Assembly (NCBI RefSeq): GCF_021556615.1
Contig: NZ_JAKGGD010000004.1
Coordinates: 248,001 to 312,000, forward strand
DNA: 64,000 nt
Source of the DNA: Paracoccus salsus
GTDB taxonomy: Bacteria; Pseudomonadota; Alphaproteobacteria; Rhodobacterales; Rhodobacteraceae
Reading direction: 5' to 3'
Below the pieces are notes generated by a model, which worked only from the letters and a program-made list of their open reading frames with translations, made no database searches and was not told the DNA's origin. Positions 10,808 to 56,064 of the stretch are shown here, in pieces. The position numbers and the translations under genes were made by a program. Position 1 is the first letter of the stretch. Every line of letters begins with the position of its first letter.

Positions 10808-13774
10808 TCATCCTTCGATATTCAGCGCTTCGTTCACCAGCGCCTCTTGTTCTGCCTTGTGGCGCGAGGCGAGGCCGGTCGCGGGCGAGGCCGCCGCGTT
10901 GCGGCCGACATAGCGGGGGCGGGTGTGTTTTGACCCCAGCCGTTCCAGAACCCATTCCAGATAGGGTTCGACAAAGGTCCAGCCGCCCTGGTTCTTGGGC
11001 TCTTCCTGGCACCAGATCACCTCGGCCTGCTTGAAGCGGCCCAGCTCCTTGACCATCGCCTGCGCCGGGAACGGATAGAACTGCTCCAGTCGCAGCAGGT
11101 AGACATCGGTGATGCCGGCCTCGTCGCGGGCCTTCAGCAGGTCGAAATAGACCTTGCCCGAGCAGATCACGATGCGCTTGATCTTGCCATCCGCGACCAG
11201 CTTGGTCGGCGAACTGCCACGCTGCGCGTCGTCCCACAGAAGCCGGTGGAAGGTCGAGCCGGTCTGGAATTCCTCGGCCTTGCTGACCGCCAGCGGGTGG
11301 CGCAGCAGCGATTTCGGGGTCATCATCACCAGCGGCTTGCGAAACCCGCGATGGATCTGCCGGCGCAGGATGTGGAAATAGTTCGCGGGCGTCGTGCAGT
11401 TCGCGATGATCCAGTTGTCCTCGGCGCACATCTGCAGAAAGCGTTCGAGGCGGGCCGAGGAATGTTCCGGACCCTGGCCTTCGAAGCCGTGCGGCAGCAG
11501 CATGACAAGGCCGGACATCCGCAGCCATTTCTTTTCGCCCGACGAGATGAACTGGTCGAACATGATCTGGGCGCCATTGGCGAAGTCGCCGAACTGGGCC
11601 TCCCACAGCGTCAGGGTGTTCGGCTCGGCCAGCGAATAGCCGTATTCGAAACCAAGCACCGCGTATTCCGACAGCATCGAGTCGATGACCTCGTAGCGGG
11701 CCTGACCCTCTTCGATATTGTTGAGCGGGTAGTAGCGGTCCTCGGTCTTCTGGTCGATCACCGCCGAATGGCGCTGGCTGAACGTGCCTCGCGTACTGTC
11801 CTGACCGGCCAGACGAACGCCGTGGCCCTCGAGCAGAAGCGAACCGAAGGCCAGCGCCTCGCCGGTGGCCCAGTCGAAGCCCTCGCCGGATTCGAACATC
11901 TTGCGCTTGGCTTCAAGAAGCCGGGTGACGGTCTTGTGCACGTTCACCCCGTCGGGCACGCTGCTGAGCGCGCGTCCGATCCGGGTCATCGCCTCGGGGC
12001 TGACGCCGGTCTCGCCGGCGACGTATTCGGCGCCCTCGCGTTCGAAGCCGGACCATTTCCCGTCCAGCCAGTCGGCCTTGTTCGGCTTGAAGTTCTTGCC
12101 GATGTCGAACTCTTCGTTCAGATGTGCCTGGAAGGCGGCCTTCATGTCCTCGATCTCGCCCTCGGGGATCAGCCCGTCAGCGACCAGCCGTTCGGTATAC
12201 AATTGCAGCGTCGTCTTGTGCGACTTGATGCTGTTGTACATCGCCGGGTTGGTGAACATCGGCTCGTCGCCTTCGTTGTGACCGAAGCGGCGATAGCAGA
12301 AGATGTCCAGAACCACGTCCTTGTGGAATTTCTGGCGGAATTCGATCGCGACGCGAGCCGCGTGCACCACCGCCTCGGGATCGTCGCCGTTGACGTGGAA
12401 GATCGGCGCCTCGACCATCAGCGCGATATCGGTCGGGTAGGGCGAGGTGCGGCTGAAATGCGGGGCGGTGGTGAAACCGATCTGGTTGTTCACGACGATA
12501 TGGATCGTGCCGCCGGTGCGGTGGCCGCGAATGCCCGACAGCTGCAGGCATTCGGCGACCACGCCCTGTCCGGCGAAGGCCGCATCGCCATGCAGCAGGA
12601 TGGGCAGCGAGGCGGTCCGTTCCTTCCGGTCGTTCATCTGGTCCTGTTTTGCGCGCACCTTTCCCAGCACGACGGGATTGACCGCCTCGAGATGACTGGG
12701 ATTGGCAGTCAGCGACAGATGCACGGTGTTGCCGTCGAACTCACGGTCCGAACTGGCGCCGAGATGGTATTTCACGTCGCCTGACCCGTCCACGTCCTCG
12801 GGCTTGAAGCTGCCACCCTGGAATTCGTGAAAGATTGCGCGGTAGGGCTTTGACAGCACATTGGCCAGCACCGACAGCCGGCCCCGGTGGGGCATGCCGA
12901 AGACGATCTCCTGAACACCCAGCGCGCCGCCGCGCTTGATGATCTGTTCCATCGCCGGGATCAGCGCCTCGGCGCCATCAAGACCGAAGCGCTTGGTGCC
13001 CATATACTTGACGTGCAGGAACTTCTCGAAGCCCTCGGCCTCGACCAGCTTGTTCAGGATGGCGCGGCGGCCGGTCTTGGTGAACTGGATTTCCTTGCCG
13101 TAACCCTCGATCCGCTCCTTCAGCCATGCGGCTTCCTCGGGGTTCGAGATGTGCATGTATTGCAGCGCGAAGGTGCCGCAATAGGTGCGTTTCATCAGAT
13201 CGGTGATCTGGCGGATCGTGGCGATCTCGAGGCCCAGCACGTTGTCGATGAAGATCGGACGGTCCAGATCGCCGGATTCGAAACCGTAGGTCGAGGGCCG
13301 CAATTCGCCATGGTCGGGAACGCTGCGCAGCCCCAGCGGGTCCAGATTGGCGTGCAGATGGCCGCGGATCCGGAAGGCGCGGATCAGCATCAGCGCGCGG
13401 ATACTGTCCAGCACCGCCTGGCGCATCTGCTGGGTGGTCAGCTCGACGCCCTTTTCGGTGGCCTTCTGCGCGATCTTCCGGATCGCGGCGTCGGCGTCGG
13501 ACTTGCTGGATTGCGGCCATTCGCCGGTCAGCGCGGCGGTGGTGTCATCGACCGGCGCCGGCGGCCAGTCGGCGCGTTTCCAGCTTGCACCCTCGGCCTC
13601 GCGGACCGCGTCGGCCTCGGCATCGCCCAGACCACGAAAGAATTCATCCCAGGCCTGATCGACCGCTTCCGGGTCTTTCGCCCACTGGCCGTAAAGCTGT
13701 TCGACCCAGGCGGCGTTGTGGCCCTGAAGGAACGAGGAGTCGTGGAAATCGGTGTTCTTGGGTTGGTCGTTCAT
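10808..13774 (-). CDS. sucA: 2-oxoglutarate dehydrogenase E1 component
   Basis: A 988-residue thiamine diphosphate enzyme that decarboxylates 2-oxoglutarate and succinylates the E2 lipoyl group. The N-terminus ([17 protein letters not shown]) is the conserved E2/E3-binding peptide. The ThDP signature [13 protein letters not shown] with a downstream NNQIGFTT lies near residue 395-430, and [20 protein letters not shown] near 755. ATG 13774 was chosen rather than 13786 because GAGGTCCACC precedes it. It is followed at 4 bp by sucB. It is preceded by two small lipoprotein genes, an arrangement that places them between sucD and sucA. Confidence 0.97.
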
Positions 13775-13890
13775 GGTGGACCTCACAGGTCAGGAAAAGC
13801 GGATGAAGCGGTAGCCGGGGATCGAGCCGGATGGAGCCGGGAAGGCGGCCGAGGCGGGCATGGCGGCCGCCGCCGCGGAGAACGCGCCGC

Positions 13891-14394
13891 CTAGCCGCAT
13901 TTGACGACCATGACCTTCACGCCCGGCATGGCGCTGGACCCGCCCGACGTGTTGGTGCGCGCACTGGCGACACCGGCATCGCCGCACAGGCGTCCGGCGA
14001 CGCCCTCGACGCTGGCGGGTTCGGTGCGGTCGGGCCGGAAGAGCACGCTGAAGCCCCGGTCGGCATTGCCGGTGACCGCGACGACGGCGTTCTGGCGCAT
14101 GCCGGTGCGGGCATCGACCGGGCCCGAGAAGCCGGGCGCGGCGGGCTTGGGTTCCTCGGGCTGGGATGCCGCAGGCGCAGCCGCGGGCAAGGGCATCTCG
14201 ATCGGCCGCGGGGCAGGGACGGCGGCCGGTGCGGTGGCCGCGCGTGCGGCCGGCGCCGGGGCCGACGATCGCGCCGCCGGTGTCTGAAGATGTGCGGGCA
14301 CGACCGCGCAGCCGGCCAGCGACAGCACGGCCAGGACCGCCGCCGCGCGACCGCGCGCCAGACTGTGCATGAGGGTGTTCTTCTTGAAGGTCAT
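13891..14394 (-). CDS. Small lipoprotein, paralogue of its upstream neighbour
   Basis: A 167-residue predicted lipoprotein: a KK...R n-region, hydrophobic AAAVLAVLSLAGC with lipobox Cys29 (Cys21 if the ATG at 14370 is used), an Ala/Pro-rich linker to about residue 95, then a folded C-terminal domain of about 75 residues ending KVMVVKCG. That domain, with the pattern GFSVLFRPDR...LCG...VKCG, matches the neighbour's GWRLIYHPDR...LCG...VYCG, so the two are tandem paralogues, each with two C-terminal cysteines. The start 14394 lies 13 bp after the neighbour's stop. I do not recognise a named family. It sits directly upstream of sucA. Confidence 0.75.
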   Translation of the reverse strand: MTFKKNTLMHSLARGRAAAVLAVLSLAGCAVVPAHLQTPAARSSAPAPAARAATAPAAVPAPRPIEMPLPAAAPAASQPEEPKPAAPGFSGPVDARTGMRQNAVVAVTGNADRGFSVLFRPDRTEPASVEGVAGRLCGDAGVASARTNTSGGSSAMPGVKVMVVKCG

Positions 14395-14407
14395 GTCTGG
14401 AATCCGA

Positions 14408-14809
14408 TCAACCACAATAGACATCGATGATGACGGCGCCGGGGTCGGAATAGGGGTCGAGCCGCGGGATGTTCTCGATCCGCGCGACCGGCCGCCGTTC
14501 CAGCCCGCACAGCGCGCGGGCAGCGCCCTGTCCGGCATTCGGCGGCGCACGGTCAGGGTGATAGATCAACCGCCAGCCGTAATCGCGGCGCGCGACTGTG
14601 CGCACGGATTCCGGGGGCAGGGTGCTGGCCTGATGCAGGTCGGTGCGGGCCGGGATGCCGCCGGGCAGGATCAGGTCGGTGGATCGCTGGCCGCAGGCGG
14701 CCAGCGTCAGCAGGGCGGCCAGCGACAGCGGTCCGACCGTGAAACGGACAGGCACCGGGCGTGACGCCGCGGCAATGGCCGGTCCTGGCTGGGGCTGATG
14801 CTGGCTCAA
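14408..14809 (-). CDS. Small lipoprotein between sucD and sucA
   Basis: Predicted lipoprotein of about 133 residues. The hydrophobic stretch GPLSLAALLTLAACG with a preceding Arg is a clear type II signal. The mature part ends RLIYHPDR...ALCGLERR...IIDVYCG and is a paralogue of the next gene. The start is uncertain. A TTG at 14809 follows GAGGCAGGA, a GTG at 14755 would begin just before the signal peptide, and an ATG at 14845 lies in the loop of a strong hairpin and is less likely. The two C-terminal cysteines could pair in the periplasm. Function unknown. Confidence 0.65.
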   Translation of the reverse strand: MSQHQPQPGPAIAAASRPVPVRFTVGPLSLAALLTLAACGQRSTDLILPGGIPARTDLHQASTLPPESVRTVARRDYGWRLIYHPDRAPPNAGQGAARALCGLERRPVARIENIPRLDPYSDPGAVIIDVYCG

Positions 14810-14833: not shown

Positions 14834-14865
14834 CCCGCGCCCCATAGTCAGATGGGGGGCGCGGG
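14834..14865 (-). terminator. 10-bp perfect stem-loop just after sucD
   Basis: CCCGCGCCCC and GGGGCGCGGG form a perfect 10-pair stem with a 12-nt loop, starting 12 bp past the sucD stop. There is no clear T run in the minus-strand direction. It could end or attenuate the mdh/sucCD transcript before the lipoprotein-sucAB genes, or protect the sucCD mRNA 3' end. Confidence 0.6.
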
Positions 14866-14876
14866 CTGTCAAATCA

Positions 14877-15761
14877 TCAGCCCTTTATGGCTTTCAGAAC
14901 CGCCTCGCCAAGCCCCGCGGGGCTTTCGGCGACCACGATTCCGGCCTTCTTCATGGCTTCGATCTTCGATTCAGCATCGCCCTTGCCACCCGACACGATC
15001 GCGCCGGCATGGCCCATGCGGCGGCCCGGAGGCGCGGTGCGGCCAGCGATGAAACCCGCCGTGGGCTTCCATTTGCCCTTCTTCTTCTGCTGGGCCAGGA
15101 ATTCGGCGGCCTCCTCCTCGGCCGAGCCGCCGATCTCGCCGATCATGATGATCGACTCGGTCTCGTCGTCGTCGAGGAACATCGCCAGCACGTCGATATG
15201 TTCCATCCCCTTGATCGGGTCGCCGCCGATGCCGACGGCGCTGGACTGGCCCAGTCCGACATCCGAGGTCTGCTTGACCGCCTCGTAGGTCAGCGTGCCC
15301 GAGCGTGATACCACGCCGACGCTGCCGCGCTTGAAGATGCTGCCGGGCATGATGCCGATCTTGCATTCGTCCGGCGTCATGATGCCGGGGCAGTTCGGGC
15401 CGATCAGGCGCGAGGCGCTGCCTTCCAGCGCGCGCTTCACGCGCATCATGTCCAGAACCGGGATGCCCTCGGTGATCGCCACGATCAGCGGGATCTGCGC
15501 GTCGATGGCTTCCAGGATCGAGTCCGCCGCGAAGGGGGGCGGGACATAGATCGCGGTCGCGGTGGCGCCGGTCTTGGCAACGGCCTCATGGACGCTGTTG
15601 AACACGGGCATGTCCAGATGTTCGATCCCGCCCTTGCCAGGCGTGACGCCGCCGACCATTTGCGTGCCATAGGCGATCGCCTGTTCGGTGTGGAAGGTGC
15701 CCTGGGACCCGGTGATCCCCTGGCAGATGACTTTGGTGTTCTTGTCGACGAGAATGGCCAT
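14877..15761 (-). CDS. sucD: Succinyl-CoA synthetase alpha subunit
   Basis: The 294-residue subunit binds CoA and carries the phosphohistidine of succinate-CoA ligase. The N-terminal CoA-binding Rossmann part has [13 protein letters not shown] (residues 12-24), which also binds the CoA phosphates. The active-site loop [16 protein letters not shown] near residue 246 contains the phosphorylated His. The length is standard. It starts 4 bp after the sucC stop, forming a tight sucCD pair. The stop is followed by a strong stem-loop and then two lipoprotein genes before sucA. Confidence 0.98.
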
Positions 15762-17003: not shown

Positions 17004-17069
17004 ACAGACTGTCCTAGCCTAGAAACGTTTTCCCGGCAAAGAGCCGAAAACCGGCAGGAAGACGCATAA

Positions 17070-17100
17070 TGTGATCACAGTCCGAAAATCCGTGATCACA
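17070..17100. promoter_or_regulatory. Paired palindromic operator upstream of sucC
   Basis: Two GTGATCAC palindromes lie at 17071-17078 and 17092-17099, 21 bp apart start to start (two helical turns). In the direction of sucC transcription the distal copy reads TTGTGATCACG and the proximal copy TGTGATCACA. The identical pair with identical spacing precedes sdhC. The proximal site is about 110 bp before the sucC start. The regulator is not identified by sequence. Confidence 0.75.
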
Positions 17101-17247
17101 ATCGCGCCGCTGTTAACGCCAGCAGGGCGATTCGGTTTGCCGGGCGGCGGGCGTCCGGTTCAGGAGAATCATGCAAACGCCGGCATTGCCATGGAAAAGT
17201 CGGGCGAGGCCATATCGCGCCATGCCGCGGGGAACGCCGAACGACAC

Positions 17248-21809: not shown

Positions 21810-22094
21810 GCGTTTCCCTGTCAGCGCGCGCGGCGATTGCGGGCCTCCGGCTCGATCCGGGGTTCGGCATGCCGAAGTATGCCTTCGCCCGGCGCGCGGC
21901 CGGCCATCTTGTGATCACGCGCGGCGTGGGCGTGATCACAAAGTGCGGATTCCGCGACTTTTCGTCCGGGGGTCTGGTATATGCGGATGACAGCCAATAC
22001 AAAAGCCGACAGAAGATGCGCCAATCGCCAGCCCGCGAGGCCAGCCGAAAGCCTGCGACGGGTCGAGCTTGAACCGACAAAGGAGGGCCGCACC
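21810..22094. promoter_or_regulatory. sdhC upstream region
   Basis: This 285-bp region holds the sdh operon promoter. A TATATG at 21978-21983 is a plausible -10 element. The paired GTGATCAC sites lie upstream, and a GCCAATACAA decamer shared with the sucC leader is at 21993-22002. An 88-codon frame (21806-22072) crosses these sites. It has no family resemblance and I treat it as spurious. Confidence 0.6.
21910..21940. promoter_or_regulatory. Paired palindromic operator upstream of sdhC
   Basis: GTGATCAC occurs at 21911-21918 and 21932-21939, again 21 bp apart start to start, embedded as TTGTGATCACG and CGTGATCACAA. This matches the sucC site in core, spacing and distal flank. The proximal copy is about 154 bp before the sdhC start. 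Confidence 0.75.
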
Positions 22095-22487
22095 ATGGCC
22101 GACGTGAACCGGGGTAACCGGCCGCTTTCCCCCCATCTTCAGGTCTACAAGCTGCCGGTGGCGGCGGTGACCTCGATCCTGACGCGCGTCACGGGGCACG
22201 CGCTGGTCGCGGGCATCCTGCTGATCGTCTGGTGGCTGCTCGGTGCCGTCAGCGGCCCGCGGGCCTTCGCGACCGCCGACTGGGTGGTGCGGTCCTGGCT
22301 GGGCTTCCTGATCCTGACCGCGTCGGCCTGGGCGCTGTGGTATCACGCGCTGGCCGGCATCCGGCACCTGTTTTACGACGCCGGGATCGGCCTCGAGATC
22401 GACGAGTCCCGGAAATCGTCCTGGGCGATCATCATCGGCTCGGGCGTGATGACCCTGATTTCCCTGATCCTGTTCTTCATCGGCTGA
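22095..22487 (+). CDS. sdhC: Succinate dehydrogenase cytochrome b556 subunit
   Basis: A 130-residue membrane anchor with three helices (about residues 32-52, 65-88 and 107-129). RPLSPHLQVYKLP is the conserved N-terminal signature, SILTRVTGHAL forms the quinone-site loop, and HALAGIRHLFYDAG carries the heme-ligand histidine. AAGGAGGGCCGCACC precedes ATG 22095, which excludes longer upstream frames. It heads the sdhCDA-x-x-x-B operon and is 15 bp from sdhD. Confidence 0.96.
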   Translation: MADVNRGNRPLSPHLQVYKLPVAAVTSILTRVTGHALVAGILLIVWWLLGAVSGPRAFATADWVVRSWLGFLILTASAWALWYHALAGIRHLFYDAGIGLEIDESRKSSWAIIIGSGVMTLISLILFFIG

Positions 22488-55927: not shown

Positions 55928-56064
55928 GTTGTCCGGCCCCGTTCTGATCCGGCACGAAAAGCGGCGCAAGTCCAAAACCTGCGCCGCCTTTCGTGCCGGC
56001 TCATCATGGCACGCGCATCCGTGCGGAAGGCCGCGCCCCGCCGCGGGCGCGGCGATCTGTGCGG

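Follow-up and report, generated by a model that had tools for sequence, protein, structure and literature searches.

A Small Lipoprotein Family at the sucD-sucA Junction of Paracoccus, behind a Conserved Promoter-Like Hairpin

Introduction

Bacterial lipoproteins, as substrates of SPase II, have a lipobox whose invariant cysteine follows a hydrophobic N-terminal segment. Outer-membrane lipoproteins of the RcsF type are among the closest known counterparts of the two proteins described here, LpA and LpB, which would have in common with them a lipid anchor, a Pro-rich flexible tether (in LpB) and a small C-terminal alpha/beta disulfide domain. RcsF carries two disulfides and has Rcs signaling partners, whereas LpA and LpB have one predicted disulfide, and the comparison serves as a working analogy only. 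In the predicted alpha-beta-beta-alpha-beta-beta arrangement of its domain, LpA may resemble the circularly permuted ferredoxin-like periplasmic domains of PilO (2rjz), XcpY (6ghu) and EpsL (2w7v), although the Z scores are weak (∼4, with Foldseek E > 0.1 for the PilO/GspL-like ferredoxin fold), sequence similarity is lacking and those domains belong to pilus and secretion machines.

In alphaproteobacteria, intrinsic terminators have a GC-rich hairpin after the gene and sigma-70 promoters a TTGAC element followed by a 17-nt spacer. The locus analyzed here has these traits too, but apparently with terminator and promoter in one element and the −10 hexamer in the loop of the hairpin. Searches of titles and abstract openings returned no publication on these lipoproteins or on the hairpin element, the article PMC6956336 being not relevant. 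The finding is a modest but clean one, namely an unnamed lipoprotein family with a single genomic slot and a conserved, testable candidate promoter-hairpin element.

Results and Discussion

Anatomy of the Locus

The window is a stretch of 64,000 nt from Paracoccus salsus. An earlier note on this DNA had placed two adjacent small lipoprotein genes between sucD and sucA, and the open reading frames and sequence bear this out, giving the order sucD, lpA, lpB, sucA on the minus strand. The flanking genes we take to be sucD and sucA, names that come from the earlier note and general knowledge and not from a family search. The gap between lpA and lpB is 13 nt and that between lpB and sucA 116 nt, counting sucA from its putative ATG. 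The genes and their parts are as follows.

14877..15761, minus strand: sucD, succinyl-CoA ligase alpha subunit, 294-aa ORF, left border of the slot
14408..14809, minus strand: lpA, lipoprotein, ORF for a 133-aa precursor with a putative TTG start at 14809
14411-14695, minus strand: mature part of LpA, 95 aa (lipobox LAAC)
14693-14695, minus strand: lipid cysteine of LpA
14507-14509, minus strand: Cys63 of LpA
14414-14416, minus strand: Cys94 of LpA
13891..14394, minus strand: lpB, lipoprotein, 167 aa, ATG start at 14394 (lipobox LAGC)
13894-14310, minus strand: mature part of LpB, 139 aa, a Pro/Ala-rich linker and then the domain common with LpA
13894-14130, minus strand: LpB copy of the common domain, with Cys109 (13984-13986) and Cys138 (13897-13899)
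10808..13774, minus strand: sucA, 2-oxoglutarate dehydrogenase E1, right border of the slot, putative ATG at 13774 (the listed ORF runs from a GTG at 13786)

We propose that lpA and lpB occupy a variable slot between sucD and sucA as cargo and encode small periplasmic proteins that are usually lipid-anchored; the probability that this explanation is right in its anatomy, family and expression logic taken together is, in our estimate, roughly 0.65. A hairpin after sucD would form in transcripts reading through from sucCD and act as a terminator or 3'-end signal. The same stretch would double as the promoter of the next unit, with its −10 in the loop and TTGACA lying 5' of the stem. Transcription from it would yield an lpA-lpB-sucA message headed by lpA and lpB, and the amount of LpA and LpB would follow the expression of 2-oxoglutarate dehydrogenase with no physical link to the enzyme. 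Both proteins would be lipidated at Cys1, and their invariant domain cysteines (Cys63 and Cys94 in LpA) would form a structural disulfide stapling a helix to the last strand, with the LpA domain held near the membrane and the LpB domain at the tip of a Pro/Ala-rich tether of roughly 60 residues.

The Hairpin Element after sucD

The 10-bp stem-loop claimed in the earlier note is present, and it is bordered and occupied by promoter-like hexamers.

14867..14872, minus strand: −35-like hexamer TTGACA
14834..14865, minus strand: conserved hairpin, 10-bp stem (arms 14856-14865 and 14834-14843), 12-nt loop
14844..14849, minus strand: −10-like hexamer GACTAT in the hairpin loop, 17 nt from the −35; putative promoter role

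Across the genus, the 80 nt following sucD (or following lp0, a third gene of the family, where lp0 precedes) contain a stem of at least 8 in 87 of 114 loci. Shuffled sequences gave such a stem in 27 of 570 cases, and stretches taken from within sucD gave one in 4 of 106. Such stems occur in 43 of 54 loci with lpA only, in 10 of 11 lp0-lpA-lpB loci, where they lie at the lp0-lpA junction, in 9 of 16 slots holding a GT2 glycosyltransferase gene and in 12 of 13 cargo-free slots; the stem-loop is tied to the slot and not to the lipoproteins. TTGA lies 26-34 nt ahead of the 3' arm, most commonly at 29 nt, in 70 of the 87 hairpin loci compared with 6% in shuffled flanks, and a 17-nt spacer leads from it to a −10-like hexamer in the loop immediately before the 3' arm. 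Of the 120 genus loci, 62 carry the strict pattern TTGAC-N18-NANNNT in their slot; it is absent from all 61 other loci, one of which (L003) is a duplicate from a genus member.

Covariation was judged from the stem statistics and an arm-swap control, since variation in loop and stem length left a covariance model from the plain MAFFT alignment with no more than 4 pairs. Pairing over the 10-position arms averaged 9.1 for own and 4.9 for swapped arms, a test biased by the choice of arms on their own pairing, and stem mismatches are G-T in 11 cases vs A-C in 3, which merely hints at an RNA hairpin. Alignment A8 took in 56 of the 85 distinct hairpins listed. A covariance model, R1, has a single strong match in the window, at 43.4 bits with the next at 12.7, the window copy being part of the model alignment. 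It matches exactly once in 48 of the 55 named Paracoccus loci searched (of 61), always shortly upstream of lpA. A promoter scan of the window listed none at this site, and GACTAT agrees with TATAAT at 3 of 6 positions. Likewise, a terminator scan gave none here; the 10-bp stem has no T-run and is followed by the tail ACCACCC. Rfam 15 had no match in the window at gathering score; with the limit set to E ≤ 1, the sole match was a chance one to mir-612, on the opposite strand.

From its sequence, the element looks like a sucD terminator fused with the promoter of lpA-lpB-sucA. Outside the genus, a stem of at least 8 follows sucD in 37 of 58 loci (15 of 290 shuffles) and TTGA occurs at the same distance in 0 of the 37, and we read this as a widespread sucD 3' hairpin onto which a promoter may have been fused in Paracoccus. 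The same observation speaks for another account, in which the element is only a sucCD terminator or 3'-end stabilizer, the TTGAC is incidental and lpA-lpB-sucA is read through from the mdh-suc promoter. We consider that account rather doubtful, given that within the genus 70 of 87 hairpins have TTGA at the right distance where 6% would be expected, and that the loop keeps A and T at −11 and −7 of a 17-nt-spaced −10 in the 62 strict-pattern loci.

More tentatively, we suggest that a single 40-bp element is terminator and promoter at once: its stem, in read-through RNA, would end the sucCD message, and its loop −10 would start the sucA unit, possibly in dependence on supercoiling or upstream transcription. 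It would uncouple sucCD from sucA and provide a protected cargo site where a disulfide-stapled lipoprotein family would have been born, duplicated, lost and replaced with its expression locked to that of 2-oxoglutarate dehydrogenase. If real, a promoter within a hairpin would be an example of one short sequence by which a bacterium expresses two neighboring TCA steps separately. The earlier suggestion that the lipoproteins are passengers on a TCA promoter is the one favored by the conserved promoter-like hairpin after sucD and by the position of the genes between it and sucA.

A Family Confined to One Slot

Of the 125 genomes of the genus, 89 were matched in a search with an alignment of the whole superfamily, 65 of them once, 11 twice and 13 three times (126 matches in all), and relatives of LpA were found by tblastn in 85 of the 125. 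The genome of the window has no third copy beyond lpA and lpB. Nearly all matches (122 of 126) share a contig with sucA and lie at most 1861 nt from it; the remaining 4 come from genomes in which sucA was not found or is on another contig (G250, G216). Among 394 genomes of the wider taxonomic family, matches were seen in 8, namely that of the window, one more of the genus and six from six other genera. The seven loci other than the window's own were read, and all seven have sucD on one flank and sucA on the other. Named LpA-type loci number 61 from the genomes of 84,980 species, every one labelled Paracoccus. The family is thus found at the sucD-sucA slot only, in all relatives examined, in seven genera including the window's own, and the gene order that the earlier note had proposed to check holds wherever the surroundings are readable.

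The slot was located in 120 of 125 genus genomes using the first 100 aa of the sucA ORF (window 13487-13786), and its border in relatives was set by tblastn with the SucD protein. These 120 loci hold a family member in 88 cases and none in 32, with the following contents.

lpA alone: 54 of 120 loci
lp0-lpA-lpB: 12 of 120 loci
lpA then a DUF805 protein: 6 of 120 loci
lpA-lpB: 6 of 120 loci, including one (L090, genome G271, also L009) in which the true order is lpA before lpB
lpB alone: 4 of 120 loci, three of them truncated (L068, L158 and L210, cut at contig or flank ends)
lp0-lpA: 2 of 120 loci
lp0 type alone, GT2-lpA-lpB, DUF805-lpA and lp0-GT2: one of 120 loci each
no family member: GT2 glycosyltransferase in 16, DUF805 protein in 2, none of the searched genes in 14

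The distribution of these genes was followed on a sucD tree of 108 tips, which takes in the window as well as three loci that came from other flanks and leaves out ten loci by name (short, missing or odd sucD) along with any others of less than 800 nt. By parsimony, lpA (75 tips) requires 8 changes, lpB (15 tips) 5, lp0 (15 tips) 5, GT2 (17 tips) 6 and DUF805 (9 tips) 7; all except DUF805 are more clustered than in all 300 shuffles. The closest clade to the window (G215, G225, G199, then G257) has lpA only. As this distribution and the lpA-only nearest relatives show, lpA is the core gene of the family, and lpB in the window has been sporadically added or retained. The earlier note took a lack of the pair in the nearest relatives as evidence against itself; of the pair, lpA is kept there and lpB is absent in all four.

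The other occupants of the slot are unrelated to the lipoproteins. GT2 glycosyltransferases (PF00535, E 1.1e-9; e.g., L142 and L146) are often found behind a similar promoter-hairpin, and DUF805 (PF05656) membrane proteins (L172:2399-3010, plus strand; L105:968-1507, plus strand) have the slot in common with lpA in some Paracoccus and are its sole occupants in other genera. Small lipoprotein-like ORFs also occur in the slots of other genera (L114:1070-1465, plus strand; L213:131-478, minus strand; the first slot gene of L004). By blast these three are unrelated to the LpA/LpB/Lp0 family, suggesting that the slot may favor envelope genes more widely. Since the slot takes unrelated genes too, position need not imply a functional tie to sucA. 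This makes the locus a clean natural case of gene turnover within a conserved metabolic operon, with exchangeable envelope cargo in one slot, seen at one conserved, putatively regulatory element across about 120 species' loci.

That every family match with readable surroundings sits at this slot, in seven genera, might instead mean that the lipoproteins work together with 2-oxoglutarate dehydrogenase or succinyl-CoA ligase as a functional module, acting on TCA output and selected for co-regulation with it. We regard such a module as unlikely. Exported proteins cannot touch cytoplasmic enzymes, and LpA and LpB are most likely not part of 2-oxoglutarate dehydrogenase, as that enzyme is cytoplasmic; moreover, 32 of the 120 genus loci have no family member (empty, GT2 or DUF805), and divergence and duplication in place account for the tie to the locus without a function.

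Predicted Fold and the Paired Cysteines

AlphaFold2 models of moderate quality were obtained for LpA (pLDDT 79.5, pTM 0.70) and the LpB domain (pLDDT 81.7, pTM 0.68), and both are predicted to follow the order helix-strand-strand-helix-strand-strand. The structural comparison proposed in the earlier note gives the same predicted secondary-structure order. In VIA-align, both domains match best to one set of circular permutants of ribosomal S6, with Z scores of 6.0 (LpA) and 6.1 (LpB), middling values that show a common arrangement and nothing more. Foldseek returned no match at E ≤ 0.001 for either model, the PDB fold search no clear relative among the matches listed and the PDB sequence search no match.

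No member reaches the gathering score in Pfam (22 members scanned); the best score is to Rotamase_2 (E 0.0044) in 2 members, and the first member has no match. The Pfam, NCBIfam and PADLOC scans yielded only scattered weak matches in one or two members apiece, and the LpA/LpB/Lp0 family is without a name in the libraries searched, uncharacterized and fast-changing. LptM was considered and rejected: LpA scores 17.8 bits (E 0.0029) against PF13627, with a cut-off of 27.3, and 18.7 bits (E 0.0014) against NF047847, with a cut-off of 27.7, and in both cases only signal peptide and lipobox are matched.

The two conserved cysteines that the earlier note had seen in each protein are invariant in the family alignment. 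One falls where a helix ends and the other on the final strand of the small predicted periplasmic domain, positions suggestive of a structural disulfide. The earlier note had also raised a response to redox or envelope state in step with respiration, which finds no support here. As redox or envelope-stress sensors, the proteins would switch their cysteines between disulfide and thiol and signal the state of the envelope alongside TCA flux, which the invariance of both cysteines throughout the family and the adjoining central respiratory enzyme could be taken to favor. Such a role is very unlikely: no signaling partner is seen at the locus, some genomes have an empty slot or a glycosyltransferase instead, and invariant cysteines in a small exported domain are the usual mark of a structural disulfide. 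Returning to the cargo explanation, the likeliest molecular role of LpA and LpB, proposed with low confidence, is that of an accessory envelope adaptor or binding domain. The family is simple enough for direct structural work.

Kinship and Selection

Profiles of LpA (35 sequences) and LpB (12) align over 78 columns (hhalign probability 88, E 3.1e-6), and the Lp0-type profile aligns with those of LpA (probability 95, E 3.9e-8) and LpB (probability 98.7, E 2.2e-16). In a blast network, 112 mature slot proteins form a single component at E < 1e-4; at 1e-10 the LpA cluster splits from the LpB/Lp0 cluster, with 460 cross pairs below 1e-2 and a best of 2e-7 (118-protein set). As judged by these comparisons, LpA, LpB and Lp0 are one paralogous family with similarity spanning the entire domain of ∼78 residues. 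The tandem paralogy proposed in the earlier note is upheld by the profile comparisons, the intermediate sequences and the predicted fold order, and that observation was right and under-stated. The similarity it saw is real and extends beyond the C-terminus to the whole domain, and the two genes are part of a tandem array with as many as three paralogs. Its F/Y-x-PDR motif holds for LpA and LpB, which both have PDR, and fails in relatives, which have HPARAP, RPAQTD and others in its place. That LpA and LpB are unrelated lipoproteins alike in one short motif by chance or convergence, as their direct identity of merely ∼24% and the unconserved PDR might suggest, is hardly credible and already refuted by the profiles, intermediates and predicted fold order as far as sequences and models reach.

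The only invariant columns of the family alignment are Cys63, Gly86 and Cys94 in LpA numbering (22 of 22 rows of alignment A4, 19 of 19 of A7), and C1, C63 and C94 are invariant in all 35 aligned LpA sequences. The lipid C1 is present in 35/35 LpA, 12/12 LpB and 8/8 Lp0-type sequences, all of which had been selected beforehand by lipobox pattern. LpA and LpB have the lipobox of bacterial lipoproteins (SPase II substrates) and are accordingly predicted lipoproteins.

Purifying selection acts on all three members, with pairwise dN/dS below 1. For LpA, 16 pairs were picked and 15 computed, of which 13 lie at 0.03-0.36 and 2 at zero; the medians are 0.27 for LpB and 0.21 for the Lp0 type (36 pairs each). 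That the ratio is below 1 in all three members lifts these lipoproteins above chance.

One far family member from the wider search, directly upstream of sucA (L248:1498-1743, plus strand, the same as L321), has a cleavable-type, SPase I-like signal peptide and no lipobox, which makes the domain and not the lipid the constant part of the family. Two distant members (L322 and L325) have an extra C-x-C (DCGC, DCSC) soon after the lipid cysteine.

Other Features of the Window

The palindrome GTGATCAC occurs in pairs with a spacing of 21 bp at two places in the window, 17069-17101, upstream of sucC, and 21909-21941, upstream of an ORF (21981-22487) that is sdhC-like by eye. The half-site has 4 matches in the window vs 1.06 expected, and a pair lies near the start of sucC, upstream of lpA, in 48 of 60 named Paracoccus loci. 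This sequence pattern may serve the suc and sdh operons as a common operator; titles and abstract openings in the literature gave no name for it. A hairpin with a 20-bp stem and an 11-nt loop lies at 55949-55999 on the minus strand and has by far the longest stem in the scan of the window.
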